Shown here piece after piece: positions 39,441 through 64,000 of a DNA stretch of 64,000 bases. The notes beneath the pieces are model-generated. The model did no database searches. It was given only the letters and a program-made list of their open reading frames with translations, and was not told where the DNA came from. The stretch's first letter is position 1. Every line of letters starts with the position of its first letter. Position numbers and translations under genes: made by a program. Source of the stretch: Diphasiastrum complanatum (Eukaryota; Streptophyta; Lycopodiopsida; Lycopodiales; Lycopodiaceae); contig CM055095.1 of the NCBI GenBank assembly GCA_029204225.1, positions 26,705,312 to 26,769,311 of the forward strand, in the 5' to 3' direction.

Positions 39441-40100
39441 CCCTAGTCAATCACAACAAGTGAAAGATGTGTAGTTTGGTCATAAATGTCGGTATCAGGG
39501 CATATCCGTGTGTAGTAGGTCGACATGATCGTTTCTTCCACTTGGTTTTGACACAAGTCCTAATAGCATTATGATTATCGAGCCACGAGTTTCAAGTCAT
39601 TATCATACATCTTTCTAGAAGTACAGTGTTTCAAGGTAAGCCATTGATTCGTAAGAGTGGAATGCCTATACGTGCTTTAGTTACTAAAAATCTGTTGTTA
39701 TGGATCATTTTTAGGCATCAACCTTATGTTCTATGCCTTTTCTACATCTTGCTTTAAAGTAAGCGTTTCATCAACATGGTGAAACAATGATTATGGCAAT
39801 CAAAGCACTATCTTATTTTCTTGGAGGACATAATTTTATGAAGGTGCATAAAATAATATTTTTCAAGAAAAGTATTTCCCTCAAAATTTTAGGATATGGA
39901 CCGGTGAATTCCATGCTTAGATCATCACATTTTGCAGTTTATGCTGCGTAAGTTGATTTGAGTAAGTACGAGAACTATGAGCTCTTGGATCCATACGAAA
40001 GAAGGAGGCTATTGCATGACTGCAAATTACAACTTTCACTAAAGAAAGTGTCAAAGATGGAGTAGCCTTTGAAGATTCAATTTGCACTTTGTAATATTTT
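39441..40100. other. Non-coding sequence
   Basis: No gene, LTR boundary or RNA gene recognised. Confidence 0.35.
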
Positions 40101-42582
40101 TTATTTCAATATATGGAATATCTTTGTATGTCTATTGTCTACTGGCTTGTATAACTTTACATGCTTTTTGAAAATTTTCATAATTTGACGATTTTGTATT
40201 ATGACGAATTTGCACTCTTCTGTAAAACCATTGTTCTTTGTGCTGGTTCCACCATGTTGTGTAGTTTTGTGAAATGTCGCTCTTGCATGCCAATGAGATT
40301 TCTCCATTCCTTGTGATGACATACGCTGAGACTTCCACTATTCCTTGCAAAGAATGTCGAATGGTGTCGTAATGTGTGTTGCACGTCATACAAACAAATA
40401 TAAATCGGTACCAAAAGCATCTAAACTAATTACACATATAAATGTCTATAATAGTGTTACACCAAAATCTTACCATATAAAGTGTTATATGATTTGCTCT
40501 CCATGCAATTTGAACTGCATTCACAAATTCACTGGTTGTCATTTGTATATCAGTATTTGAAAATTGATCTTTTCTCAAGTATTTCACCATGTTGTCTAGT
40601 TTTCTCCAAACTTCTACTTTGAGTAGTTGAGTAGAACCTTGTTCCTCGAAATCTTGAGTTGCAGCTATTATCTCTTTCCAAACTGAGTATTGAATCTTGT
40701 TATTTTTTCCAAAATAATTTGATAAAAATCTACGATCTTTGGATCCTCCAATGCTCGGTTTGTGTGGAATATTTTCTGATTTACCTGAAAGCTTGTCGTC
40801 TTTTTTTATTTTAACATAGCCTTTATGTAAGCCTACTTTAGACAATAAATCCTCTAATCTGGATAGAGTTTGCTTCGAAGATGACTCCGACTTGGTATTC
40901 CATGCAAACAAGATGTGAAGATATATTATTTTCTCTATTATACGCACCTCTGCATGCAATGTACAAATATGAACATTATGAATGGTATTGGTAGTACATG
41001 TTTCCAATTAGGATCATCTCGGTCTCTTGATATTCCTGTACTCCTTGTCATGTCTTTTGCTATCTTCATGCAGTAAAGACAAGGGTGCTTGGAGTTAGCT
41101 CCATGGGAAACATTGAACATACATTTCAATGTCTTCAAATCTCCTGCTAAATGCCATTCTATGTTGAAGTTGCCAATTCCTGAAATACCGAGTGGAACTC
41201 CCTCCATGTGATTGCTGATGATGTCAAGATATGATATTCTACTAAATATCCATGAGAGAATGTCATGGTCTACTTTCAACACTTGTAAGAGAAACAAGAA
41301 ATTTGATTCAACATAATATTAACATAGAGAAAAATATTCAAATAGAATCCATTTAAGAGCAACTATATCTGAAAAGCTGCCAGCCAACAAATATAATTCT
41401 TTGATTGAACACTAAAGTTGAGGCCTTCTGAGTGTTTTGAATTCAAAAGTGCTCCATTCATGACCGTAAGACTAACTTTCTCCATTTTCTGTCCCTTAAT
41501 AATAATTTCAGACTCATCTAACTTAAGAACAACAATCAACTTGCTATTGACATTTTCATTTGTAATACCATAAAATCTTATTATGAATACTGGCAACTGA
41601 TTAATATCAATAAACAAATTGTTGGAATTGTCATAAGTTAGACATTCTCCTTTTGAGCTATACACTTCATTGATATGAAATGGAATACCCACTATTTTTG
41701 GCATGCCTTGGTTTAACATGTCTCTCTTCTTTTTAAGATGAAATGGTTGTGGGATCGAAAACGTTTTTACACTCACCTGTGCAAATGCTTCCTTTATCGT
41801 CTTGAACATTGTGGCATATGCTTCTCTACTGATGTTAGCAAAATCACATGCCCCTTGTACCAATGTAATGTCTAATATTTTTCCAACTTCATTCATGATG
41901 CTATCTGTAATTGAGGCCTTAACTTTTTTCATTCTATTGTTGTCTAACATTGACTTCAAAGACTTGGTAGTCAAAATAGAACCTAATGATCTTCCAATGG
42001 AAATCCCATCGGCCAAATGTTGTTTAACAACCAATGTAGATCTATATAGCAAATGAATTTTCAGAAAATAGTCAGTAATTTTTTGGACACAAAGTATACT
42101 GAACAAATTGGACACAAATAAAAAAAATAAATCAATATCAATACAAATAAGCTAGAACTTACTTGAATGCACAAATTTTTCTTTTTCGGTAACCTCCATT
42201 GGATGAAAGATTACAAATGTTTACAAATCTCTTTCTCTTGTTAGTTTTTGTCTTTTTGTTGAGCAAATCCATGTCTTTAACCAGAGATAAATAAGAGGTA
42301 TGCATGATTTGAAATGAAATCTTCATCTTATCATTACTAATTGTAAAATCACGATAAGAAGATTGTAACATTTGATTCTCCTTCTTGAGAATATTATTTG
42401 TCTCTAAACAAGTTTTCAACTTTATAGATGTTTTTTGACACTCTTGGTATGTTCTTTAATTGCTCTTCTAAACAAAATATTTTACGCAATGAGTGTGCAT
42501 TACCATAAGCTTTCAAATTTTCACAGTAATATAAAAGACCATTTTTTTCGTGACACATATAGATTATTAACTGAGTCACCAA
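40101..42582 (-). CDS. Multi-exon transposase-like gene with WHLAGD and CLYC motifs
   Basis: Minus-strand exons share consistent splice sites. An N-terminal coiled-coil-like Lys/Glu/Asn-rich region (42,160-42,582, one apparent frameshift near 42,450) ends at donor AA|GTAAGT. Acceptor ATATAG|A rejoins in frame at STLVVKQHLADGI. A 220-codon exon (41,363-42,040) contains VLKLDESEIIIKGQKMEKV. Then VLKVDHDILSW to NIEWHLAGDLKTLK and SKHPCLYCMK (40,990-41,297), with a short intron GTACTA...CAGAG into VRIIEKIIYLHI (40,426-40,960). A last exon near 40,101-40,322 reads QGMEKSHWHARATFHKTTQH. WHLA.D followed about 20 residues later by CxYC resembles uncharacterised proteins I recall from corals, Hydra and algae, suspected to be transposon-derived. 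This is memory, not a search. Long open exons suggest recent activity or constraint. Confidence 0.55.
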
Positions 42583-43161
42583 ATTAAAATCAAGATGTTA
42601 CAATGAATATGGATCAACATGATACAATATTCCTGATGACCATAAATCTAAATGCCTTAGCTTTGCCTCCCTATAATTCATCATATTAGAATATGATAAT
42701 TTAGAATCTTTAGAAATTCTTGTTCTAATCGGAGCGTACTCTGGTAAGAGATCCACATGAAGGTAAATGGTAACAAAGCTGGAATAACAGAGCTGGAGAT
42801 GAAATAACAGAGCACGATGAAATAACAGAGTTGGAGATGGCGCTTGAACAGTTGTTCGACCATAGAGATGGAGATGGTATTCGCCCAGAGCTATGAAATG
42901 TCATAGTCCACATCTTTTTTGAATTTTTGAATGTCCAAGCTTCTAGAAGGGAATATTTTGACTTCACACGAGTCACATTTAACTGTAGCTAAAGCATTTG
43001 TCACGTTTGATGTGACTACAATAAGGGATATGCATGCGCATGTAAAGTCGTGCGGGCAGATGCATAAAGAAGTTAGAAAACTATATTTTGATTATTTTAG
43101 TGTTATTTTCTCTCTCCTACATGGCATTTCTTATAGGGCCCTTTTCGGGCCCATATTTTCT
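42583..43161. other. Non-coding sequence upstream of the transposase-like gene
   Basis: No gene. It holds short GGAGATGGAGATGG and AACAGAGCTGGAGATGAAAT repeats near 42,780-42,875 and a GGGCCCTTTTCGGGCCC dyad at 43,137-43,153. Confidence 0.4.
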
Positions 43162-43410
43162 CTAATGTTGTTGCGTTGAATCTAATTGCTCCGCCTTGGT
43201 CTTCTTATCCTTGAAGTTCTTCTTTTTGGACTGTTGCTTATTTGAGTACAATGCCATTGTCTTGGTACTCGTTGTAGATAAGTTCTTTCTCCTAACTTCT
43301 TCCTGCAATAGACTTGTTGTTAGCTTCTGGAGTGATAGCACATGAGTATTGCTAAGAAGCAATACTAGATTGTCGTAGGAGGGTCGAAGATTGGCGAGAA
43401 GTTAGTTACA
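43162..43410 (-). pseudogene. Copia family B gag fragment
   Basis: The minus strand reads LLLSNTHVLSLQKLTTSLLQ, then EEVRRKNLSTTSTKTMALYS, colinear with the gag block at 24,344-24,574. It is an isolated piece about 270 bp beyond the 3' end of the alcohol dehydrogenase gene. Confidence 0.8.
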
Positions 43411-43683: not shown

Positions 43684-46535
<2,852 letters not shown>

Positions 46536-51701: not shown

Positions 51702-52840
51702 AATCTACCCCAAGGCAGCTTACAAACGCTCGCAGCTCCAAATGCTTTTTCTATGGCAGGAAGATCGGTGAGAAGTTGATCGGGGAGCCTAGGGAAACAA
51801 ATCGCCTTGGGAGAGCATAGATTTTTGTGATCGTCAACCTAGAAAATCCACGGAAAAACATGTATGCTAGTATTGCAATGTTCATAAGGCTTCAAAGAAA
51901 GAGCTTTTCTCTTTGTTGCATACTAATTAATGTCTGAAGTTAGAGCTAGTAAACCACAATAGTCAGAATGTGGGCATTATCGAAACTCGAAAAATGGCAA
52001 CCAAACATTATCGGTTTTTGTTTTCTCTCTACATAACCTCTCTCTAAAGTAAAACTTCTTAAAGGGCCCACTTTGAGCCCATATGTCCCCTAATGAAATC
52101 CTTGAGTAACAATATGGAGCCATCAAGGCTCAACCATATGAATCAAGAAAGGCAAGTTGGATTTAGCATCATTTTTTATGCACTTAATAGCTTAAGAGAT
52201 ATATCATCAAGTGCACAAAAAGCCTTGGAATTCATAGCTTGGTGTGATGTTTAGTTTTGAAGTGTGCTACATGTATATGGACACATCTATGGAGCATATT
52301 GTAAGGGATCCTTTAAGAGGTGGTGAAAGATCCTTCATGGACATCATTCTCTATTGGAGTCTCAAAAGTTCCTTGTTGGTAGCAAGATTTTTTTAAACAC
52401 TTCTAAAGGATTCATCATCAAGCAAGGAGAGTTGTAAATAGATCAAGCTAAATTTGAGAAGTGTGAGAAATTGTCAGAAAATTGGAAAATCTAGCTTAAA
52501 CCATGTAAATTGTACATAGGTGGGTCCTGCACATGTGAATCCTTATTGGCACGTGTGAGTTGAGGTCAAAGTAGTTTAGATCTCATTCATAGGGTTAGTT
52601 AGGCTTGTTTTGTCATAATTCCTAGATTATAGGGCCAAATTCCTTGAATCATGGAGGTGGATAACCAACCTAGCCACCAACTTGGCAAAACTCTAGGGTT
52701 AGGTAATATTGACAAATTAGGGCAAAAATAGTCAATCATATTCCTTAGTACATGCTGGATTTTTACCTAACTTGAGAGGACAAGAGCTCTATTGTACATA
52801 CAATCCATCATTCCATAATGAGGAGATATAATTTTTGGAG
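51702..52840. other. Non-coding sequence before the intact copia element
   Basis: No gene recognised. A short stretch near 52,070 (AAAGGGCCCACTTTGAGCCC) resembles 43,130-43,155. Confidence 0.4.
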
Positions 52841-52845
52841 CAAAT

Positions 52846-53526
52846 TGTAAAAATTACAGCAAATAAGGACCTAAAACACTTGAAATGATGAGGGAAACAA
52901 TAGATTATGATCTCATAAGATTAGCACAAGTTGAACCATCAAAATCCATCAAAAATCTATGCTTGAACCTCACTAAATGGCCCAAATCCTTGAAGAAGGC
53001 TTCACACGTGTGAAAGTACGGCCTCCCACAGTCTGAGTACTGTACACCAGACCTACATTCAATCCTATAATCATTAGTAATCACAAGTACTCAAACAATT
53101 ATGAACATAGAGAGCAATTGCACCATTATGAGAGAAAAATCATGAAATTGCTTGATTAATTTTGGTGAGATATCATCACCTATATATACATGATCCATCA
53201 CGGTTTTGGGCAGGTATGAGTAGCCCTAAACCTATCCCTAATGCTAATTTTGGTGGATATTTCATCCCTACCAAGTTAGGGTTGGAATCTTGGAGATCCC
53301 TCAACAATGCAAAAATTACCAAAAATAGCTCCTATTTTTTCTCCCTTGTATCTAAGCATAATTTGGACTCATTCCAAAGGTTCTAACACTTAGGTATACT
53401 TGAGAACATCCTTATGAATGGAATCCTATGCTATTTGGCACGTGTGACAAGCCACATCATGACCATCTAACTATTTACAAGTCATATGACCAAAACTAGT
53501 CAAGCTAGAATTGTGAATTTTTAACA
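52846..53526 (-). repeat. 3' LTR
   Basis: 681 bp, TGTAAAAATT to GAATTTTTAACA. A TATATATA box lies near 53,181. The word CACACGTGTG near 53,000 is a palindrome containing the ACGT core bound by plant bZIP factors. Confidence 0.95.
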
Positions 53527-53540
53527 CTCCTCCTCACTAT
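53527..53540 (-). other. Polypurine tract
   Basis: The minus strand reads ATAGTGAGGAGGAG, filling the whole gap between the gag-pol stop codon (53,541-53,543) and the LTR. Confidence 0.85.
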
Positions 53541-56500
53541 CTAGCTTGGTTCAATCATTGCTTTACTAATCACTCCAAGTGATGATATGAACTTCATAAA
53601 AGGTGTCTTTTGAAGTGGTTTAGTAAGTAGATCAGCTACACATTCATTGCTTGGAACATGCTCCAAAGCAATCTCCTTGGCTTGCACCATTTCTCTCACA
53701 AAGTGATGGCATATCTCAATGTGCTTAGATCTTGCATGGAAGATTGGGTTAGATGCAAGGTGTTGGGCTGATATATTGTCATTGTAGATGATTGGTGCCT
53801 CCTCTGAATCCATGATCTTTAGTTCCACCAATAATCTCTTGATCCAAAGTACCTCCTTTGTAGTGGTTGTCAAAGCTTTGTACTCGGCCTCGGTTGAAGA
53901 TAGAGATATAGTTTCTTGCTTTTTTGAAAGCCATGAAACCACACCTTCTCCTATGAAAGTTGAATAGGCACTTGTTGATTTCCTATCCCTCTTGTCCCCT
54001 GCAAAATCTGAATTACTAAATGCATGAAGGTTAATCACATCTCCTCTATATAGAATCCCAAAATCCAATGTACCCGAGATGTATCTTAGAATCCTCTTAG
54101 CCTTTTTCCAATGGATATTCAATGGCTTTTGCATGGATTGGCTCAACCTACATACACTAAAGCTAAGATCTGGTCTAGTTGTAGTGATCCACATTAAGGA
54201 ACCTATAAGTTGCCTAAACAAAGTGATGTCCATGAAGGATCTTTCATCATCTTCATTTGGCACTTTTACATCTTGCTCCATTGGTGTGTCAACACTTTTG
54301 CATACTTCCATCTTAAACTTCTTCAAAAGACTTTGAGCATAGTTTACTTGACTTATAAAGATAAAATCAGACCCTCTAAGTACTTCTATGCCTAAGATGA
54401 AGTGAAGACATCCTAGATCTACCATCTTGAACTCTAAGGATAGATCTATCTTGATTTTTTCAATACCATCAACACTATTTCCACTAATGATGATGTCATC
54501 TACATAAATGAGTAAAAGTACAATACCAACATCATCAAACTTAATGTAAAGAGTAGGATCATATTCACTTTGAACAAAAGAAAGTGAAATAAGATAGCAA
54601 TGTAGTCTTGAATTCCAAGATCTCGAGGCTTGCTTCAAGCCATAGATGCTTCTTTGGAGATGGCATACTTTGTTCTCCATTCCATGCTTGATGAACCCTT
54701 GTGGCTGCTCCATATAGATATCTTCTTCCAAAAAAGCATTCAAGAAAGCATTAGAGACATCCATTTGACATAGAATCCATCCAAAATGTGATGCAAGTGC
54801 AATGATTAGTCTTATTGTGACCATCTTGGCCACGGGTGCAAAAGTTTCCTCATAGTCTATCCCTTTCTCTTGAGCATAACCTTTTGCAACTAATCTTGCT
54901 TTATGTTTGTTAACACTCCCATTTGCATTCAACTTAAGCTTGAAGACCCACTTGCATCCTATTACATTCCTTTGAGGTCTCTCAACAAGCAACCAAGTTT
55001 CATTCTCAATCAAGGCATCATACTCATCCAACATAGCTTTATACCATTCTTTGGAGTTCAATGCATCTTCAACATTAGACGGTTCTTCAAAACTAGATAA
55101 AGCATAAGAAGTGGATGAGATACCCTCAACTTGCTGTCCTTTGCCTTGATATGTGAGCCTTGATGGCTCCACTTTTGCCCTTGAAGATCTCCTTGGTGTG
55201 ATAGGTGGGTTTGGTGCTTGCTCCTCCATGAGCTCCTCCTCAAAACCAAGATCTTGCTCCTCGGCCATCTTCTTCTTGATTGTTGGAGCACTTGAGCCTT
55301 CTTCAAGCATATGCATATGATGTTCATCAAAGATGACATCCCTTGAAACAAAAAATTTGTTCAAGGATGGGAGATAGACTTTGTAGCCCTTGCTTGAGCT
55401 TCCATATCCAAGCATGATCCCTCTTGTGGAAGATGGATCCTCCTTGGTTCTTGTTTCCAATGGCACATGCACATAACATATACACCCAAAAACTTTCAAG
55501 TGATTAAGATTGGGTTTCTTTCCATACAACATCTCATAAGGAGTTTTGCCTTCAATTGCTTTGCAAGACACCCTATTCATCAAGTAGTTTGCACATACAA
55601 GAGACTCACCCCAAAAGGATTTGGGCAAACAAGCATCTAATCTTAAAGCCTTAGAACATTCACATAATGTTCTATTCCTTCTTTCAGCAACTCCATTTTG
55701 TTGAGGAGTGTAAGGACAAGAAGTCTCTTTCTTGATCCCTTCCTCCTCACAAAAGGCCTTGAACTCATTGGAGATGAATTCTCCACCATTGTCACTTCTA
55801 AGAATCTTGATGCTATGATTATGATGCTTTTCCACAAACAACTTGAACTTTACAAAAGTATCAAATACTTGAGACTTTAAGGAAAGTAAGAACACCCAAC
55901 AATATATTGAGTAGTCATCAATGAAGGTTAAAAACATGGATGAACCTCCATTAGATTTGGTGCTAGCAATGTGCACATCCGAGTGTATGAGTTCAAGAGG
56001 ATGAGATGACTTTGTGATGGAGTTAGGAAACACCTTCTTATGTGCCTTGGATAAGGCACAAGCTTCACAAACCTTGTCTTCCTTCCCAATAGACCTTGGT
56101 AGGCCTAAAGCATACTCCTCCTTGATCATAGCCTCCATGGAACCCGAGTTGACATGTCCAAGTCTTTTGTGCCATAAAGTAAAGGTAGCTATCTTGCTCT
56201 TCTCGGCCAACATGACAACATTAGTATCCACAAATGCATCCAGCTTATAAAGTTTGCCAAGTCTAGTGCCCTTAGCCACTATCTTACCCTTCTTCTTGAT
56301 GAAACATTCATTTGAAGCAAAGTCAACATTGAAACCATTATCTACCATTTGGCCAACACTTAGTAGATTCTTTGTTATTGTAGGAATGTACAAAACACCT
56401 TCTATGTTGATCTTTTTGGAAGATCCTAAGCAAAGGGGAATGCTACCAACTCCTTCAATCTTACAAGCTTCATCATTTGCTGTATAGATAGACTTTATAG

Positions 56501-57509
56501 GTCCATCATAAGATAAGAGAGAAGAGAAAAACTCCCTTTTACTAGTCATGTGTGAACTAGCACCCGAGTCAATCCACCAAGGATCTTCTCCTTTGAAGCT
56601 TGTTGAAGAAAATATGGACATCATGAGAGAGTCCTCATGTGAACTCTCCTCCTCCTCCTTTTTGCTCATGTTGGCTTGGCTTTGATCTTGCTTCCTCTTG
56701 AAGCATTCCGAGGCATAATGCCCCATCTTGCTACAATAGTAGCACTTCACCTTTGATTTGTCCTTCTTGACTTTGGTGGTTGATGGAGATGCCTTTGAGG
56801 GTCCTTCTTGATCCTCAAGCTTTGTAGACTTCTTGAATGTTGATCCTTTGCCTTTGGACTTGCCTTTGCCTTTGGTGAAGAGAGCTTGGTCATCTCCACC
56901 TTGGATGGAAAGCCTATCCATCCTCTCTTGCATTTGGCTCCTTCTTGATTCCTCGGCCATGAGTGTGCCTTGGAGTTCTTCAAGTATGGGTAGCTTACCC
57001 ATAATTGCATATCCCTGAACCAAATTGTCAAATTCAAAGCTTAGTCCATTCAATATGAGTTGAACAAGCTCTTCATCCTTGATAGGGTCACCTATAAAGG
57101 CTAGCTCTTTGTTCAATTCCTTTACTCTTAGGACAAAAGTATGTGCACTCTCTCCTTTCTTTTGATAGCTTCTATAGATTTGATTCTTCAAAGCTAACAT
57201 TCTAGTTTGGTTCTTGGATTCATAGACCTTTTGCAAAGTCTCCCAAGCATCTTGAGCTGAAGTGCAATCTCCTACCTCTCTTAAGAGTTCATTTTCAACA
57301 TTCATTTTTATGCAATGTAGTGCAACATTGCACCTCTTGATGTATTTGGCTTTTTCTTGAGGATGAATAGGTTCACCCTCCTTACCATTTACAATTTCCA
57401 TCAAATCTTGCATGATCATGATAGATTCCATTCTAACTTTCCATATGGAATAGTTAGTTTTGTTGAGCCTTTCATTAGTATCCAAAAGATATGCATTTAT
57501 AGATGCCAT
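53541..57509 (-). CDS. Intact copia gag-pol polyprotein, 1,322 residues
   Basis: Encodes every protein of the element as one polyprotein. Gag covers residues 1-250, with a CCHC zinc knuckle at C256, C259, H264, C269. Protease D314-S315-G316 lies in WWIDSGASSHM. The integrase zinc site is H447/H452 and C481/C484; catalytic acids are D511, D573 and E609 with 35 residues between the last two, followed by the VFGC...GYKVY tail. Reverse transcriptase has D917 (QMDVSNAFL) and Y1002-VDD. RNase H has E1207 (STEAEY) and D1244 (YNDNISA), but the position usually held by the first catalytic Asp (YSDADWAG in relatives) is N1166 (AFSNSDFAG). Length is typical for plant copia. The ATG at 57,509 is the first in frame after an 800-bp leader. 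Confidence 0.95.
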   Translation of the reverse strand: MASINAYLLDTNERLNKTNYSIWKVRMESIMIMQDLMEIVNGKEGEPIHPQEKAKYIKRCNVALHCIKMNVENELLREVGDCTSAQDAWETLQKVYESKNQTRMLALKNQIYRSYQKKGESAHTFVLRVKELNKELAFIGDPIKDEELVQLILNGLSFEFDNLVQGYAIMGKLPILEELQGTLMAEESRRSQMQERMDRLSIQGGDDQALFTKGKGKSKGKGSTFKKSTKLEDQEGPSKASPSTTKVKKDKSKVKCYYCSKMGHYASECFKRKQDQSQANMSKKEEEESSHEDSLMMSIFSSTSFKGEDPWWIDSGASSHMTSKREFFSSLLSYDGPIKSIYTANDEACKIEGVGSIPLCLGSSKKINIEGVLYIPTITKNLLSVGQMVDNGFNVDFASNECFIKKKGKIVAKGTRLGKLYKLDAFVDTNVVMLAEKSKIATFTLWHKRLGHVNSGSMEAMIKEEYALGLPRSIGKEDKVCEACALSKAHKKVFPNSITKSSHPLELIHSDVHIASTKSNGGSSMFLTFIDDYSIYCWVFLLSLKSQVFDTFVKFKLFVEKHHNHSIKILRSDNGGEFISNEFKAFCEEEGIKKETSCPYTPQQNGVAERRNRTLCECSKALRLDACLPKSFWGESLVCANYLMNRVSCKAIEGKTPYEMLYGKKPNLNHLKVFGCICYVHVPLETRTKEDPSSTRGIMLGYGSSSKGYKVYLPSLNKFFVSRDVIFDEHHMHMLEEGSSAPTIKKKMAEEQDLGFEEELMEEQAPNPPITPRRSSRAKVEPSRLTYQGKGQQVEGISSTSYALSSFEEPSNVEDALNSKEWYKAMLDEYDALIENETWLLVERPQRNVIGCKWVFKLKLNANGSVNKHKARLVAKGYAQEKGIDYEETFAPVAKMVTIRLIIALASHFGWILCQMDVSNAFLNAFLEEDIYMEQPQGFIKHGMENKVCHLQRSIYGLKQASRSWNSRLHCYLISLSFVQSEYDPTLYIKFDDVGIVLLLIYVDDIIISGNSVDGIEKIKIDLSLEFKMVDLGCLHFILGIEVLRGSDFIFISQVNYAQSLLKKFKMEVCKSVDTPMEQDVKVPNEDDERSFMDITLFRQLIGSLMWITTTRPDLSFSVCRLSQSMQKPLNIHWKKAKRILRYISGTLDFGILYRGDVINLHAFSNSDFAGDKRDRKSTSAYSTFIGEGVVSWLSKKQETISLSSTEAEYKALTTTTKEVLWIKRLLVELKIMDSEEAPIIYNDNISAQHLASNPIFHARSKHIEICHHFVREMVQAKEIALEHVPSNECVADLLTKPLQKTPFMKFISSLGVISKAMIEPS

Positions 57510-58308
57510 CTAGTCTCCTAGTCAAGGACTTGACACAAATGAAGGTTACTTCTATTGATTTGATTGAAGGTCTACCTTATCCCACTTCTTAGGGACCTGA
57601 AAAGATCAGTAATAGACTTCCTATAAAGATCTAAGAATGATCTCTAACAAAATCAAATCATAGAATACTAGAAACAATGCACTTGCTTGATTGAAGTAGA
57701 CAATACTAGTAGAATTGCCCCTCTTTCTATAAAGAACATTAAAGCTTCCAAATGATCTGATCAAGAGTGAATTTAAGCAACCTAATATACTTCCAAAATC
57801 ACTTGTAAAAGATCTAAATGGAACTTAATGAGGATGCAACACAATCTACTATCCAATCACAAGCAAAAAATGATCAAAATTGATGAAAAATTGATCTAAT
57901 TTGGTGCATAAGTCAAGCAATGGTTGGACTGAACCTAAATCACTTTAGGAGGTGCCTACTACACCTTAGAACAGCCTTGAAGAGTCCCCAAAACTCTGAT
58001 ATTTCCTCTCCTTGAATGCTAGAAAGCCTCCTCTATGAAATCACCTCCAAAACTCGCTTAGAAATCAATGCTTGGAGCAAGCAAAACTTGCTATCTTGGT
58101 AATGTGAATTGAATTCAACTTTGCCTCTGGTTTTAGACACCTAAACACCTGCAAATGAAGTCACACAACACCAATCTCCAATGTATTTGACTCACTTTGA
58201 GTTCTAGAATCAATACTAGATGCTAAGATCCAATATACACAAGATTTAGATCAAAAATTGTGATCAAATTGAATGAAAACCAAGGATATAGCTCATTTCA
58301 ACCTTTAG
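57510..58308 (-). other. Untranslated leader of the intact copia element
   Basis: 799 bp between the primer site and the gag ATG, no open frame of note; likely holds packaging and dimerisation signals, none identifiable by eye. Confidence 0.7.
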
Positions 58309-58320
58309 GCTCTGATACCA
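58309..58320 (-). other. Primer-binding site
   Basis: The minus strand reads TGGTATCAGAGC, abutting the 5' LTR with no spacer; complementary to initiator tRNA-Met. Confidence 0.92.
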
Positions 58321-59002
58321 TGTAAAAATTACAGCAAATAAGGACCCTAAAACACTTGAAATGATGAGGAAAACAATAGATTATGATCTCATAAGATTAG
58401 CACAAGTTGAACCATCAAAATCCATCAAAAATCTATGCTTGAACCTCACTAAATGGCCCAAATCCTTGAAGAAGGCTTCACACGTGTGAAAGTACGGCCT
58501 CCCACAGTCTGAGTACTGTACACCAGACCTAGATTCAATCCTATAATCATTAGTAATCACAAGTACTCAAACAATTATGAACATAGAGAGCAATTGAACC
58601 ATTATGAGAGAAAAATCATGAAATTGCTTGATTAATTTTGGTGAGATATCATCACCTATATATACATGATCCATCACGGTTTTGGGCAGGTATGAGTAGC
58701 CCTAAACCTATCCCTAATGCTAATTTTGGTGGATCTTTCATCCCTACCAAGTTAGGGTTGGAATCTTGGAGATCCCTCAACAATGCAAAAATTACCAAAA
58801 ATAGCTCCTATTTTTTCTCCCTTGTATCTAAGCATAATTTGGACTCATTCCAAAGGTTCTAACACTTAGGTCTACTTGAGAACATCCTTATGAATGGAAT
58901 CCTATGCTATTTGGCACGTGTGACAAGCCACATCATGACCATCTAACTATTTACAAGTCATATGACCAAAACTAGTCAAGCTAGAATTGTGAATTTTTAA
59001 CA
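58321..59002 (-). repeat. 5' LTR
   Basis: 682 bp, same ends as the 3' LTR; TATA box near 58,657 (plus-strand coordinate) in the expected middle position. Confidence 0.95.
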
Positions 59003-59278
59003 CAAATTGGCAATCTTGAGTTTTCTACACATTAATTTTGTCTTGAGTTTTTGTGAATGTTTTGGTATCAATACTTGATTCCACTTAATCTCTAATAATA
59101 GAGTGTACCTGAGTCCATACCACACACGTTTGGGGTTGTACCAGAGTCCATACCATGTTCTTTTCCTTGAATGTTCAACTAACATATTATACTTTCTGTA
59201 ATTTTAGTTAGCTCAACAAGATGATGGAGACAAATGTGGCTGGTTCTCCATCCGCAATGTATAGGTCACTTCGTTTGG

Positions 59279-59460
59279 TTTACTGCTACTACCATGCAGG
59301 CCTTGCAAGGTGCCGTAGAGGATTATCTGTCCCAATTTTTTGAGGATCATGTCTCTTGGCTGTGCATGGTAAGCGTGTTGTTATCATCATGCCCAAAGAC
59401 TTTGTAATTCTCAAAAGACTAAGGGAGCGTCATTCAAAACTTCATTTGGATAATACAAGG
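59279..59460 (+). pseudogene. Histone H3-like fold fragment
   Basis: The plus strand from 59,279 reads RFTATTMQALQGAVEDYLSQ, then FFEDHVSWLC and, after a one-base shift near 59,362, VHGKRVVIIMPKDFVILKRL. In histone H3 the alpha-2 helix to alpha-3 region reads [48 protein letters not shown]. The match runs through the whole H3 C-terminal half, with one extra residue in the VTIMPK loop. No H3 N-terminal tail or alpha-N helix is seen upstream. Downstream sequence continues as the basic linker at 59,465 after one more single-base shift in a G-run. Confidence 0.65.
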
Positions 59461-59464
59461 GGAT

Positions 59465-59701
59465 TTGCCTCCGGACAGAACTGGTCTTCCCACCACCTCA
59501 AAGAGGAAGAGAAAACAACCTCGCCCTACTAAATCCAGTTCTCGCAGGCCAACTGTTTTTCTTCCTCCCCGAGGCATTCCTTCAAAGCATTCTCGATCTG
59601 TTCTAGACTCTGTTTCAGATTCTTCTGACTCTAAAACAGAATCACAGTTGCCTCATCTTCCTCCTCCAAGGCCTCTTCAAAAGATTACTTCTCCTATATA
59701 G
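59465..59701 (+). pseudogene. Basic Arg/Ser/Pro-rich linker segment
   Basis: An open frame reading LPPDRTGLPTTSKRKRKQPR, then SSSRRPTVFLPPRG and a Ser/Asp-rich end, closed by TAG at 59,699. It is disordered in character with a likely nuclear localisation signal (KRKRKQPR). It lies between the H3-like fragment and the Ulp1-like exons and is read here as part of the same decayed gene. Confidence 0.45.
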
Positions 59702-59933
59702 GAGATAACCCAAGAGGATCGACAAGATTGTTGACACATCTGTAGATGTTGTATCTAAATCCTTTCAATCCCCTTTTCATCTTTTTGTCTGAATACCATA
59801 CGAGCTTTCTCAAAATTTTGATTCTGACCACTATAATGAGTATGAGTCTCATTTGGCTAAAAGATAAATGCTCTCAGCGACTATTTTGATTTCTTTCTTC
59901 CATATACTACTAAATTTTTTTGATTTGGTCTGA

Positions 59934-61045
59934 AGTTTTGTGAGGAAATAAAAAATAAATCTGCTGAGATATCGGATTTAATCGTCGAAGCTGGGCAAAA
60001 GTTTTTGCAAACCAACATCAATCTCGATTTTAGAACAAGAGACATTTTTGTCGTATGTCCATTTTTTATGACAATAGTATCTACAAAGGATGCCAATTTT
60101 GAGAAGGTTGTTTACTTTATCGAGTGCAGTCCAATGGCCAAAATTTATTTGATTCCCTATGAAAATAAGTAAGTATTTTTACTTGAGCATTGTTTGTGTT
60201 TCATTTTGATGTTTATGTCTGTATTGATTCAGTGTTTCATTTTGATGTTTAAGTCTGTATTGATTCTAATTTTAATTTGTATGTTGTAGCCGTCATTGGA
60301 ACCTGAATATTCTTTCCGTCAAAATTAATAAAGGAGGAGTATCAAATTTTCTATATTTGAAAAGTGAATTCGGTTGATAGCACATAGAGAATTGGATTTT
60401 TTTTTCTTCGTACTGCCATTGAGAATATACCGACAACTGCCAAATCTATTGGCAAAATAAAAATCAAATCTTCTCAGGTAGATTTTTTTTTTCTTAATTC
60501 ATATCTATTTTTTTATTTAAGTTTTTAATCCTTTCATGCATAAAATATTTTTCATACGTTAATTCTTTTCTTTCAATGTTTGTAGTCTATACAGCATAAT
60601 GATTTCTTCAACTGTGCATGGTTGTGTTGTACAACACAAAACTCTTTTTTGAATGGTATGTTGACATTGATAAGGTGATATTTTTTTTTTCTCTACTTTG
60701 ATATTGTTAGAAGAATTTAGTTGCTATTCTTTTCATTTCAATTTCAATTTTTTTAAAATCATTTTTATTAAATTGTTGATATATTTTGTTGTTTAGGACA
60801 GTTCACTATTGAGCCGTACCACCTTGATAAGATGTACAAATTGCGACCAGAGTTGGTAAAAACTTTTGTCTCAAATGACAAAATATGATCAACAAGGAAT
60901 TAAAGCCCTCCCCAATGAAGAGGAGGGAGAAATAACAGGAAAGGAGGTTGAAGTTTTTATATTTCTTGGTACTGAACTAGCACAGAAAGAAGCAATTTTA
61001 GAAGATGCTTCTCTTGGTACAGAAAAAAAATTATATGATAGATAG
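59934..61045 (+). pseudogene. Ulp1-like (C48) cysteine protease, spliced, decayed
   Basis: Exons with compatible phases: 59,934-60,168 (VVYFIECSPMAKIYLIPYEN; donor AA|GTAAGT), 60,290-60,477 (acceptor GTTGTAG; NRHWNLNILSVKI, a frameshift, HRELDFFFLRTAIENIP; donor CAG|GTAG), 60,586-60,655 (SIQHNDFFNCAWLCC; donor G|GTATG) and 60,797 on (GQFTIEPYHLDKMYKLRPEL) to a stop near 61,045. IPYENNRHWNL matches the His-Trp step of Ulp1-type SUMO proteases, and QHNDFFNCAW matches the Gln...Asn...Cys step (usually DCG). The catalytic Asp is not identifiable. Ulp1-like domains occur both as cellular desumoylases and inside plant transposons. Stops and frameshifts point to a pseudogene. Confidence 0.5.
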
Positions 61046-61480
61046 GAAAAAAAACCTATGAGATACATGTATATATTACAATCAAAAGATACATCCAATC
61101 TTACATGTACACAGCTCATTTTTGGGATTACATTTAGATGAATATGGATTGTTACAATCAATTTATGTCTTTAGAACAGTATTGTAGTGCAATTACTGAA
61201 CTAACAATAAATAAATATCTATCTCTTGTTGAATTCAATGATGATGGACTTCTACTTTTTGATAGTAGATTTCAGTGTTTCTCCACTATTTGGATAGTCC
61301 TGTCAATATCTCTGCATTTGATCTCAATCTCATGTCTTTTACATACTTGCAAAAAATGACACAAATTATATTGCATTTAGAATAGCTAACATAAATTTGA
61401 TTTTGAACCAAGCTATTCAAGTGAAATAAAATACTTGCAGCTACTTACCAGCTTTACATTGGACATGAATCTGAAATATG
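61046..61480. other. Non-coding sequence
   Basis: Downstream of the Ulp1-like gene; no gene recognised. Confidence 0.35.
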
Positions 61481-62620
61481 ACGGTATATCATATTGTAGT
61501 AACAATAGCTCCTATCTAATGCAACTCAAACTTCAATCTTTTCCAACCTCGATACAAGTCATAACTCCATCATTGAAAATTATGTCAATATTCTTTCGCT
61601 GAGAGTGTCCATTTTCCTCAATGTCTTGATCAAGTGGCACCCATTTATTTTTAATCATTTTCCATCTTTGATAATGGAAACAAAGACTCAACATTTGTTT
61701 TTCTATCTGATAATGAAAGCACATGGAGACATTTTGATTCTGCATTTTATATCTCCATTTGATTTCTCATCCATAAGCTTAGATAATAAACTATCAGATA
61801 AATTTTTACATATAAACATAGTTGGAGTTTTATGTATATTGACACTTGAAAAAAATCCACAAATATATTCAATGCAACAAACCAATTTATTCGAACTATT
61901 TTTGAGTTTGTACTTATCTTTAACGAATTTCTTACGTCATTATTTAGCTTACAACGAAATGATTTTAAAACTACAACATCCAAAACAATCCATTCATCAC
62001 TTGTAAAACTAGGTAGTGGAATCGGCTGGATTTCACCAAAAATCTGGAATGTACACAGATTCAAGAAAGAATATTCTACTATTAACAAGGTCCTTAACAG
62101 TTCTACCTCTATACTGGAACAGTCCAATATTTGTGTGCACTACATCTAATACACCTGCAAGAGATCCAGTTGGATCCCATTCATTTACATTGGATGGATA
62201 TAAGTCTGCAAGAGAAGAATGATCAGATTGGCAAGTTTAATAATAATACTTGATTATAAATCAGAAAAATCAAAGTATGGTAATATATCAATACTCACAG
62301 TTGCTTTTTTTGTGATCCTAATGGTTGAATCCTTGCACATTTATCTCTAAATGCATATATACATGTTGGACTAAAATTTTGGAAATAGATTTTCTTCCTG
62401 ATGATGTTCTGAAATCCAAAGTTCTTGCTTTCCAATGTGATTGAAATGATAGTTTTGTCTTTTTGCTTTTTCGAAATGTTCATTTTGATGATGAATGCAT
62501 CAAAACCCAAGAGTTTTTTGAATATTTTCTTGGCACCCATAATCCATTGTCATCTTTCTCATTGAAGAGAAACACAAAGTCGATTGAGGAGCATAGCTTC
62601 CTTGATGGCGCCATTTGTTA
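61480..62620 (-). pseudogene. Unrecognised minus-strand coding-like region
   Basis: Minus-strand blocks: MAPSRKLCSSIDFVFLFNEK at about 62,610; a frame MGAKKIFKKLLGFDAFIIKM running to a strong donor CT|GTGAGT near 62,299; an acceptor TTCTCTTGCAG near 62,205 leading into ADLYPSNVNEWDPTGSLAGV and VVHTNIGLFQYRGRTVKDLV; then SFTSDEWIVLDVVVLKSFRC near 62,010. The frames do not join perfectly. I recognise no domain. It may be a decayed gene of the same unit as the Ulp1-like gene, in opposite orientation, or unrelated. Confidence 0.3.
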
Positions 62621-63009
62621 TGTGCAAGCAAAAATTTGAAATATTGAACTATGAATATGAAAATATGTGTAGGCAAAAATTTGAAACATTGAACTATTTG
62701 GCGCTACGAGTTAACTCACTCTAGTTAACCACGTGAACCATGATTTGAGAATGTATTTACATTAAAGCCACATCGAGTTTCTCATTTCGACCATCTATCA
62801 TATTCATTTTCAATATTTTTGTGCCTCTTCGGGTAGTGATGAGCTAGAAGGGCAGGCCTCAACATCCAATAGCATTTCCACATGCTAGTTGATGAAACAT
62901 TTATATATTTAAATAGTTTTTATTTTAAATATATTTAAGAAAAGCTACGTTACGTAGAAGCTTGATATCAAAGTTTCTATTGATCCACAAGGCTACGAAA
63001 ATTAGAAAA
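62621..63009. other. Non-coding sequence
   Basis: No gene seen; AT-rich with a possible LTR-like edge but no boundary identified. Confidence 0.35.
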
Positions 63010-64000
63010 AAAAATAAAAAGACATCTTTTTCAAAGGCCCTTGTCGAGCTCTAAGTTTCTCCAATGCAACAACAACACAATCGACAACAACAACCTGCCA
63101 AGACCAAATTATTTTGCAAATACTGCAAAAGGTCTATCACGACATCAAAGATTGTTGGATCCTCAAGCACAACGAAGTGAGGAAGAAGACGCAGCACCAA
63201 GAAGGGAAGTTCTGACTCTGCCAGAAATTCCCAAGAAGATGAGAAGGCGATGATCATACTAGTTGAATCCATCAGAGATGCCTTGGATTGGTATCTTGAT
63301 TTTGGTACTTCTCAGTACATAACAACATGTAAGATCCTATTTGAAGACCTCTCACTAGCATATTCGAAGTATGTTTACTTCGGTGACTCCAATGCATTAC
63401 AAATTGGAGGCAAAGGATCTATACGCCTCTAACTTCCAAACGGTGAACTAACCTTGCTTAAGGATGTATTTTACGTAAACAAACAGACAAAGAATTTACT
63501 ATCAACTAGCAGGCTCATCGATCAGGGTTGTAGGGCCTTGTTCAATTCAAAGAAGTGTACCATTTTGGACAAGAACTGTTAAGAAATCCTCTCTGCAAAT
63601 AGAGAAGGTAATTTGTACATTTTGTGTCATGAGTATGCACTTAATACTAATGAAAATACTTTAGATGCTGATTTATGGCATCAAAGATTAGGACATTTAA
63701 ACATGCAATCTATCTTGCACATGCATCACAATTGTATGGTCAGAGACATGAACATTAATGTTGTCTCCACAGCAAATCAAAATGTCTACGAAATGTGCTT
63801 ACTAGGGAAACAACTTAGAACTAGATTTCCAAGAGGACAAGGCAAAAGAGCTAAGTCCATTCTTTAACTAATTCATAGTGATTTATGTGGTCCTATGAGC
63901 GTGCCCTCGTTGGGTCAAGCTTTATATTTCATCACATTTATTGATGACCTCTCCAGATTTTGGTAAAGTGCTTGGCCAAGTATAAGCTCACATAGGTATT
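63010..64000 (+). pseudogene. Copia family B gag-protease-integrase relic
   Basis: The zinc-knuckle start KLFCKYCKRS lies near 63,110, followed by a frameshift. The protease near 63,290 reads WYLDFGTSQYIT, so the Ser of DSG is Phe. Then KYVYFGDSNALQIGGKGSIR, STSRLIDQGCRALFNSKKC, the pre-integrase WHQRLGHLNMQSILHMHHN (near 63,677) and the integrase start IHSDLCGPMS near 63,875 with the first catalytic Asp kept. Stops occur near 63,430, 63,580 and 63,865. The window ends inside the integrase. Same family as 22,826-24,963, opposite orientation. Confidence 0.85.

Follow-up and report, generated by a model that had tools for sequence, protein, structure and literature searches.

The 64,000-nucleotide stretch of Diphasiastrum complanatum DNA analysed here (the window, part of contig C4 of a 1.74-Gb genome) carries what is best read as one decayed and truncated member of a transposon family, a high-copy DNA element whose gene would encode a fusion of a divergent histone H3, a basic linker and an Ulp1/C48-like cysteine protease region. 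NAC-domain genes, a marker of plants, are numerous in the genome (98 NAM matches with exon pieces counted separately), as expected of a land plant. That these parts form one transposon-borne H3-Ulp1-like gene is very probable. For the statement as a whole, in which the gene also has an anti-silencing role, we put the probability at roughly 60%.

The window copy and its relatives

The arrangement of the window copy was obtained with tblastn using the protein of a related copy, L048, as the query, and the H3-like, linker and Ulp1-like segments all lie on the + strand in that order, bearing out the three same-strand segments of the preliminary description. The homology to other copies begins at 59262. 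The stretch directly upstream (59221..59260, +) reads ATG-ATG at 59221 and is a probable 5' remnant of the H3-Ulp1 frame, since nine of the 15 related copies with a readable start begin MMARxK. The H3-like C-terminal half (59261..59436, +), comprising α-2, loop 2 and α-3 with a frame break, is covered by a pair of overlapping HSPs that lie in different frames (E 3e-15), and the N-terminal half of H3 was not found in the window copy. The basic linker containing KRKRKQPR (59437..59738, +) aligns with the linkers of other copies and is followed by the Ulp1-like region of exon 1 (59739..60168, +), which runs to IPYEN and is matched by two HSPs at 59739-60169 (best E 5e-34). None of 200 shuffled versions of the L048 protein matches the window at E 1e-3.

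The exon and intron borders of the window copy were placed by eye and are consistent with the sequence. Intron 1 (60169..60289, +) opens with a GTAAGT donor at 60169 and closes with TAG, and exon 2 (60290..60477, +) continues the reading as YEN-N-RHWNL with the RHW (His) motif and a VDST region, frame-shifted in this copy and matched by two HSPs at 60291-60471 (E 4e-8 and 2e-6). Intron 2 (60478..60585, +) leads to exon 3 (60586..60674, +), which reads SIQHNDFFNCAW, includes QHNDFFNCAW with the Gln and Cys positions and aligns in two pieces to exon 3 of L048 (E 5e-6 and 0.7). Beyond intron 3 (60675..60801, +) lies exon 4 with a C-terminal acidic tail (60802..61045, +); it reads FTIEPYHLDKMYKLRPELVKT from its start, which aligns with L048 exon 4 (E 2e-5), the frame is broken near 60887, and the tail is similar by eye to that of another copy, L035. 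The splice phases that had been proposed to join into IPYENNRHWNL and QHNDFFNCAW thus fit the window sequence with borders set by eye.

The profile scores of the window copy are weak. Its H3 frame alone reaches a Pfam Histone E value of 0.0021 (18.8 bits, under the cut-off of 26.4), and the copy gives no Pfam C48 match, whether or not its exons are joined manually. The window copy by itself could therefore not decide the question, and its identity was established through relatives in the same genome. No Rfam match occurs anywhere in the window.

A DNA search of the genome with 59200-59760 as the query lists 41 matches including the window, the best 40 of 1,459 candidates having been scored, and these best matches besides the window itself have 69-88% identity. 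Many continue to align with the window across the linker and the Ulp1-like exons. In a protein search with the H3 and linker parts of L035, all 150 scored sequences (the best 150 of 7,349 candidates) match at 71-100% identity, the value of 100% being L035 itself, and span at least 164 of the 201 H3 and linker residues. A stop-free frame of at least 330 amino acids is present in 17 of these 150 rows by hand count, a figure that is suggestive at most, since the frames also take in open codons lying before the start. Twenty ten-kb loci were drawn from the DNA matches, so that colinearity is measured on loci selected by H3 and linker, and in 17 of the 20 the H3 and Ulp1 parts have the same order and orientation (tblastn E ≤ 1e-4), with the RHW exon also present in 12 of those 17. 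At this threshold the H3 part is not detected in L029 and L036, nor the Ulp1 part in L034. The exon structure is common to many of the loci compared.

The most complete reading comes from L048, where a single stop-free frame of 373 codons (MMARTKSTARAITTVQPSH...GRKQVWLREIKK...RVTIMPKDF...SRRKRKQ...PYENK, beginning MMARTK) covers H3, the linker and the beginning of the Ulp1-like region. Three short exons downstream read RHWSL..., VQQNDAFSCA (with a stop after it) and FTLEPYTPDDVY..., so that the RHW and Q-x6-C motifs lie after the open frame and the catalytic part is distributed across exons 1-4. The entire H3 part is encoded in one exon. The six of 15 starts that deviate from MMARxK are L024 LMARTK, L030 MIERTK, L031 MMAHVK, L033 MVARVK, L034 LMARVK and L041 MMVXVN. 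Every copy translated bears stops or frame breaks, L048 itself having the stop in exon 3.

The preliminary description had left room for an H3 pseudogene lying by chance beside an Ulp1 pseudogene, and the sub-threshold Pfam scores of the window copy, taken alone, would suit such neighbours. Seventeen of 20 dispersed loci repeat the order and L048 has it in one open frame, which rules out chance adjacency and leaves it a probability of practically nil. The same two observations, with the low dN/dS of both domains described below, uphold the claim of a single gene.

The histone H3 and Ulp1-like parts

The 373-residue L048 frame matches Pfam Histone with an E value of 2.7e-23 (83 bits against the cut-off of 26.4) and exon 1 of L035 with 3.3e-19, and the top PDB matches of the H3 part are H3 chains (2.7e-17). 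The H3 identity claimed for the window segment, sub-threshold there, is confirmed in this way by its relatives. The element very probably encodes a full-length but divergent histone H3 part, with a complete histone fold, a short tail and an RVTIMPKD loop; the N-terminal H3 half read in the relatives also belongs to the predicted gene, which corrects the earlier reading of a C-terminal half. The likeness to histone H3 includes an N-terminal ARTK, which is retained in six of 15 copies with ARVK or similar in most others. Compared with plant H3, the identity is 36-48% in the aligned parts, the tail is shorter and the protease region is appended. Against what we take to be the canonical H3 tail, most of the usual tail lysines are gone and the K9, K14 and K27 contexts are absent in the copies by eye.

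A derivation of the H3 part from centromeric CENH3, which would direct the protein to centromeres, was considered and appears improbable. By eye the positions LLIP.APF, EDF/EDY and KDF resemble presumed CENH3 sequences, and human CENP-A nearly matches the plant H3 score in some copies and equals or exceeds it in two of ten (L034 and L031). The Pfam CENP-T histone-fold model also passes its cut-off (1.1e-6, 29.1 against 28.1 bits), which may reflect the fold alone. Canonical plant H3, however, outscores three plant CENH3s in all ten copies tested, clearly in L048 (85.5 bits against 66.6-70.5) and closely in L026 (68.6 against 61.2-65.1), and by eye the copies lack the extended loop 1 that CENH3 has. 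In an unrooted tree of element copies and six references, a long branch parts the element from all six with no attachment to CENH3; all six sequences used in the comparison and the tree are what we take to be H3 and CENH3. With these presumed references the CENH3 derivation is not supported. The CENH3-like residues (LLIP, KDF) are most simply regarded as convergent or ancestral, given the higher plant H3 scores and the long branch.

The assignment of the C-terminal region to the Ulp1/C48 proteases is less secure than that of H3 and is considered probable, because the W, QQ and C positions are conserved in fitting order and L048 matches PF02902 with an E value of 0.0041. The W, QQ and C positions are invariant in all seven aligned copies. 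The L048 match scores 17.4 bits against a cut-off of 20.7, only one of seven copies reaches E 1 or better, and exons 2-4 alone give E 0.066. Of the two Pfam models that the preliminary description had named as a check, PF00125 is therefore matched through the relatives L048 and L035, and PF02902 stays below its cut-off. Comparison by hhalign with a small C48 set, containing sequences we take to be SENP1 and Ulp1, gives a score of 25.2 over a colinear region (nominal probability 5%), against 11.5 for the reversed control and a maximum of 20.8 among 30 column-shuffled alignments. A PDB profile search with the Ulp1-like region found no protease, and a genome-wide PF02902 search gives three matches (the best 150 of 520 candidates scored), none alignable by blastn to the window element. 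The acid of the triad is D, E, N, A or V depending on the copy and the His is missing in two of the seven aligned copies, and for these reasons some lineages may be without protease activity. A SUMO-directed activity of the protein, suggested in the preliminary description, is putative, the C48 match lying below threshold.

The median pairwise dN/dS is 0.29 for H3 (149 pairs, 3 saturated pairs dropped), 0.28 for the exon-1 part of the Ulp1-like region (144 pairs, 8 dropped), 0.35 for exons 2-4 (99 pairs) and 0.47 for the linker (189 pairs), calculated from 23 copies with the positions of stop codons and HSPs below 42% identity left out; the pairs share ancestry and are non-independent, and dropping weak HSPs may depress the values. 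These ratios indicate past purifying selection on the H3 and Ulp1-like domains alike. The close pairs L048/L047 and L035/L043 have dN/dS of 0.57-0.73. A gene that is selected in the active lineage and decays once inserted is the usual picture of such dN/dS values.

The probable transposon and its surroundings

The repeat containing the gene looks like a high-copy DNA transposon whose scattered copies end precisely in inverted terminal repeats, in agreement with the transposon carriage that had been suggested for it. The element measures about 9 kb and is bounded by inverted terminal repeats of the sequence CATTAGAGAAAA..., and outward comparison of copies gives the left end as CATTAGAGAAAATATGGGCCCGAAAAGGGCC and the complement of the right end as CATTAGAGAAAATTAGAGCCCAACGAGGGCC. 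All 40 right-end matches scored (the best 40 of 1,493 candidates) reach base 196-197 of the 197-base query, and among the left-end matches (the best 40 of 609 candidates scored) 38 of 41 start at base 1, two at base 2 and one at base 11. Termini within 3 mismatches number 1,084 on the left and 869 on the right, with none for the reversed-pattern control. Three candidate full-length copies with correctly oriented ends emerge when left and right ends are paired by eye over the first 100 listed places of each, namely C1:33126502-33135397 (8.9 kb), C2:45465672-45474192 (8.5 kb) and C2:32225474-32234744 (9.3 kb), the first two containing an H3 match. In the window copy the 3' non-coding part of the element (61046..63033, +) is aligned through 61366-63057 and 62544-63066 to the copies L027 and L025, and the right terminal inverted repeat (63034..63066, +) has 5 mismatches in 33 relative to the L025 terminus.

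A target-site duplication was sought at a pair of ends on contig C18 that are separated by 26 kb and may not belong to a single element, and the flanks show no simple duplication. On contig C7 (62819546-62836653) two right ends 17 kb apart have mirror-image flanks, representing an inverted duplication or an assembly effect; because the flanks are mirror images, this pair is uninformative on the duplication.

In copies that extend far enough to the left, two further genes separate the H3 gene from the left end. Gene A lies on the H3-Ulp1 strand and has an invariant CxxC and a candidate D...D...E, the first D being present in three of four rows, one of which was partly filled from sister copies. 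Gene B (RDHALGYYLKFFKNNEISVAHSKFHQH...), located between gene A and H3-Ulp1 and running in the opposite direction to both, is conserved in L026, L030, L032, L035 and L041. Pfam searches of gene A and B pieces from decayed copies give no convincing family, no known transposase and no MULE or Tnp2 domain. A scan of viral contigs found no relatives of gene A. In the copy formed by L044 and L026 the gene A block is tandemly duplicated.

The window contains a second family copy, represented by its left part (39765..43167, -), which has its left terminus at position 43167 and contains gene A frames (41363-42151, 40938-41318 and 40426-41007) and part of gene B. Three compared copies all cease aligning at 39765, and there is no second H3-Ulp1 match within the window. 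A motif resembling the left terminus (7 mismatches in 33) is present at 52095 on the - strand and possibly marks a third, related element. Just upstream of the H3-Ulp1 copy and outside the element, an LTR retrotransposon labelled copia-type from motifs by eye is inserted (52846..59002, -); it has a 1322-residue frame at 53541-57509, LTRs that are 99.1% alike and a 5-bp duplication, CAAAT, at 52841-52845 and 59003-59007, and is nearly unaged. A second copia-like coding stretch (63067-63867, with CKYCKR and DLWHQRLGHLN) adjoins the right end of the element, which may have inserted into it. At 45301-45936 (-) a match to Pfam ADH_N (2.1e-13), the N-terminal domain of alcohol dehydrogenase, is probably a piece of a host gene.

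Among the places listed on contig C1, taken as 101.3 Mb, 20 of 42 right ends fall within 48.4-50.3 Mb, where 0.79 would be expected. None of the 33 listed left ends and none of the nine listed H3 matches falls in the same 1.9-Mb stretch. The cluster would reflect either the local multiplication of a right-end fragment or a chromosomal region of a special kind, and it was set aside as evidence of centromere targeting because no listed left end or H3 match lies in it.

Possible roles and known systems

The proposed mechanism assigns one task to each part of the fusion. The H3 part would pair with H4 and enter or dock on chromatin as an anchor, and the protease part would act on silencing or chromatin proteins by stripping them of SUMO or a comparable tag. 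The fusion could in this way keep the chromatin of the element permissive or aid its movement, acting as an accessory anti-silencing factor. An accessory role in relief from silencing is proposed by analogy, because VANC proteins of Vandal elements counter silencing (PMC5735166) and in some lineages carry Ulp1 (PMC13317346); for the H3-Ulp1 protein it is a tentative assignment, put at rather less than even odds. A more elaborate form, the 'eraser nucleosome', in which a hybrid nucleosome protein of an unnamed transposon superfamily anchors a deSUMOylating protease beside the silencing machinery that it disarms, is put forward as speculation with the odds well against it.

Two other roles compete with anti-silencing. 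The H3-Ulp1 protein might work in transposition itself, the histone fold steering the complex to nucleosomes or chromatin and the protease region being structural or involved in processing. The co-occurrence of the gene with two other conserved genes inside precise termini in several copies would accord with this, as would the low dN/dS of both parts, but no transposase family is recognised by Pfam in the pieces of genes A and B, and the sole cluster of ends noticed, that on C1, consists of listed right ends, with no left end or H3 match listed there; such a role is judged unlikely. The fusion could alternatively be functionless cargo, captured H3 and Ulp1 fragments amplified with the transposon. 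The lesions in all translated copies fit this view, and the ratios of the two close pairs are as expected of dead copies, whereas the medians near 0.3 in H3 and Ulp1 alike and the shared exon structure argue against it, leaving it a quite slender chance. The preferred reading, a transposon-borne H3-Ulp1 gene acting against silencing, would mean that a selfish element apparently keeps up a histone of its own. A selected fusion in a family with thousands of candidate copies would link a protease directly to chromatin, and the combination hints at interference with the chromatin that normally silences the element.

The termini of CACTA elements are CACTA, and those of the present element are CATTA. 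What the Ulp1 domain does in plant transposons is still called unknown in a 2026 review (PMC13317346), and the H3 fusion makes this role testable by asking whether SUMO is removed at the element's own nucleosomes. A close comparison is with the Kaonashi/KIU genes of Arabidopsis and its relatives, VANC genes of Vandal (non-TIR MULE) transposons that bear an Ulp1 domain (PMC13317346). As there, the Diphasiastrum element is read as a DNA transposon of a plant in which one of three genes joins an Ulp1-like domain to a putative chromatin-acting accessory protein. In contrast, the partner is H3 rather than VANC, the ends are inverted repeats and Pfam recognises no MULE transposase. The grapevine CACTA-ULP and MULE-ULP elements likewise carry an Ulp1-like domain on plant cut-and-paste transposons (PMC2528002); the present element differs in having no Tnp2 or MULE domain in the pieces read, in its CATTA termini and in the H3 fusion.

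The histone half has its own precedent in Dothideomycete hAT transposons, which amplified a captured histone H3-like sequence (PMC6710886). These fungal elements of about 9.5 kb are similarly DNA transposons, and the H3 sequences in them number in the hundreds of copies. The available portion of that paper mentions no fused protease, and the fungal elements have 8-bp duplications and a hAT transposase, neither of which was found here (PMC6710886). The H3 sequences of P. fijiensis are mostly truncated and hit by RIP, with putatively functional copies mentioned for P. tritici-repentis (PMC6710886). The oomycete Cryptons share a C48 (Ulp1) peptidase carried in a transposon, and differ in being tyrosine recombinase elements for which the excerpt mentions no histone (PMC3212892). 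Both halves have transposon precedents (PMC6710886 for H3; PMC2528002 and PMC13317346 for Ulp1), whereas no report of histone H3 fused to Ulp1 is apparent among the open-licence PMC titles and abstract openings listed.
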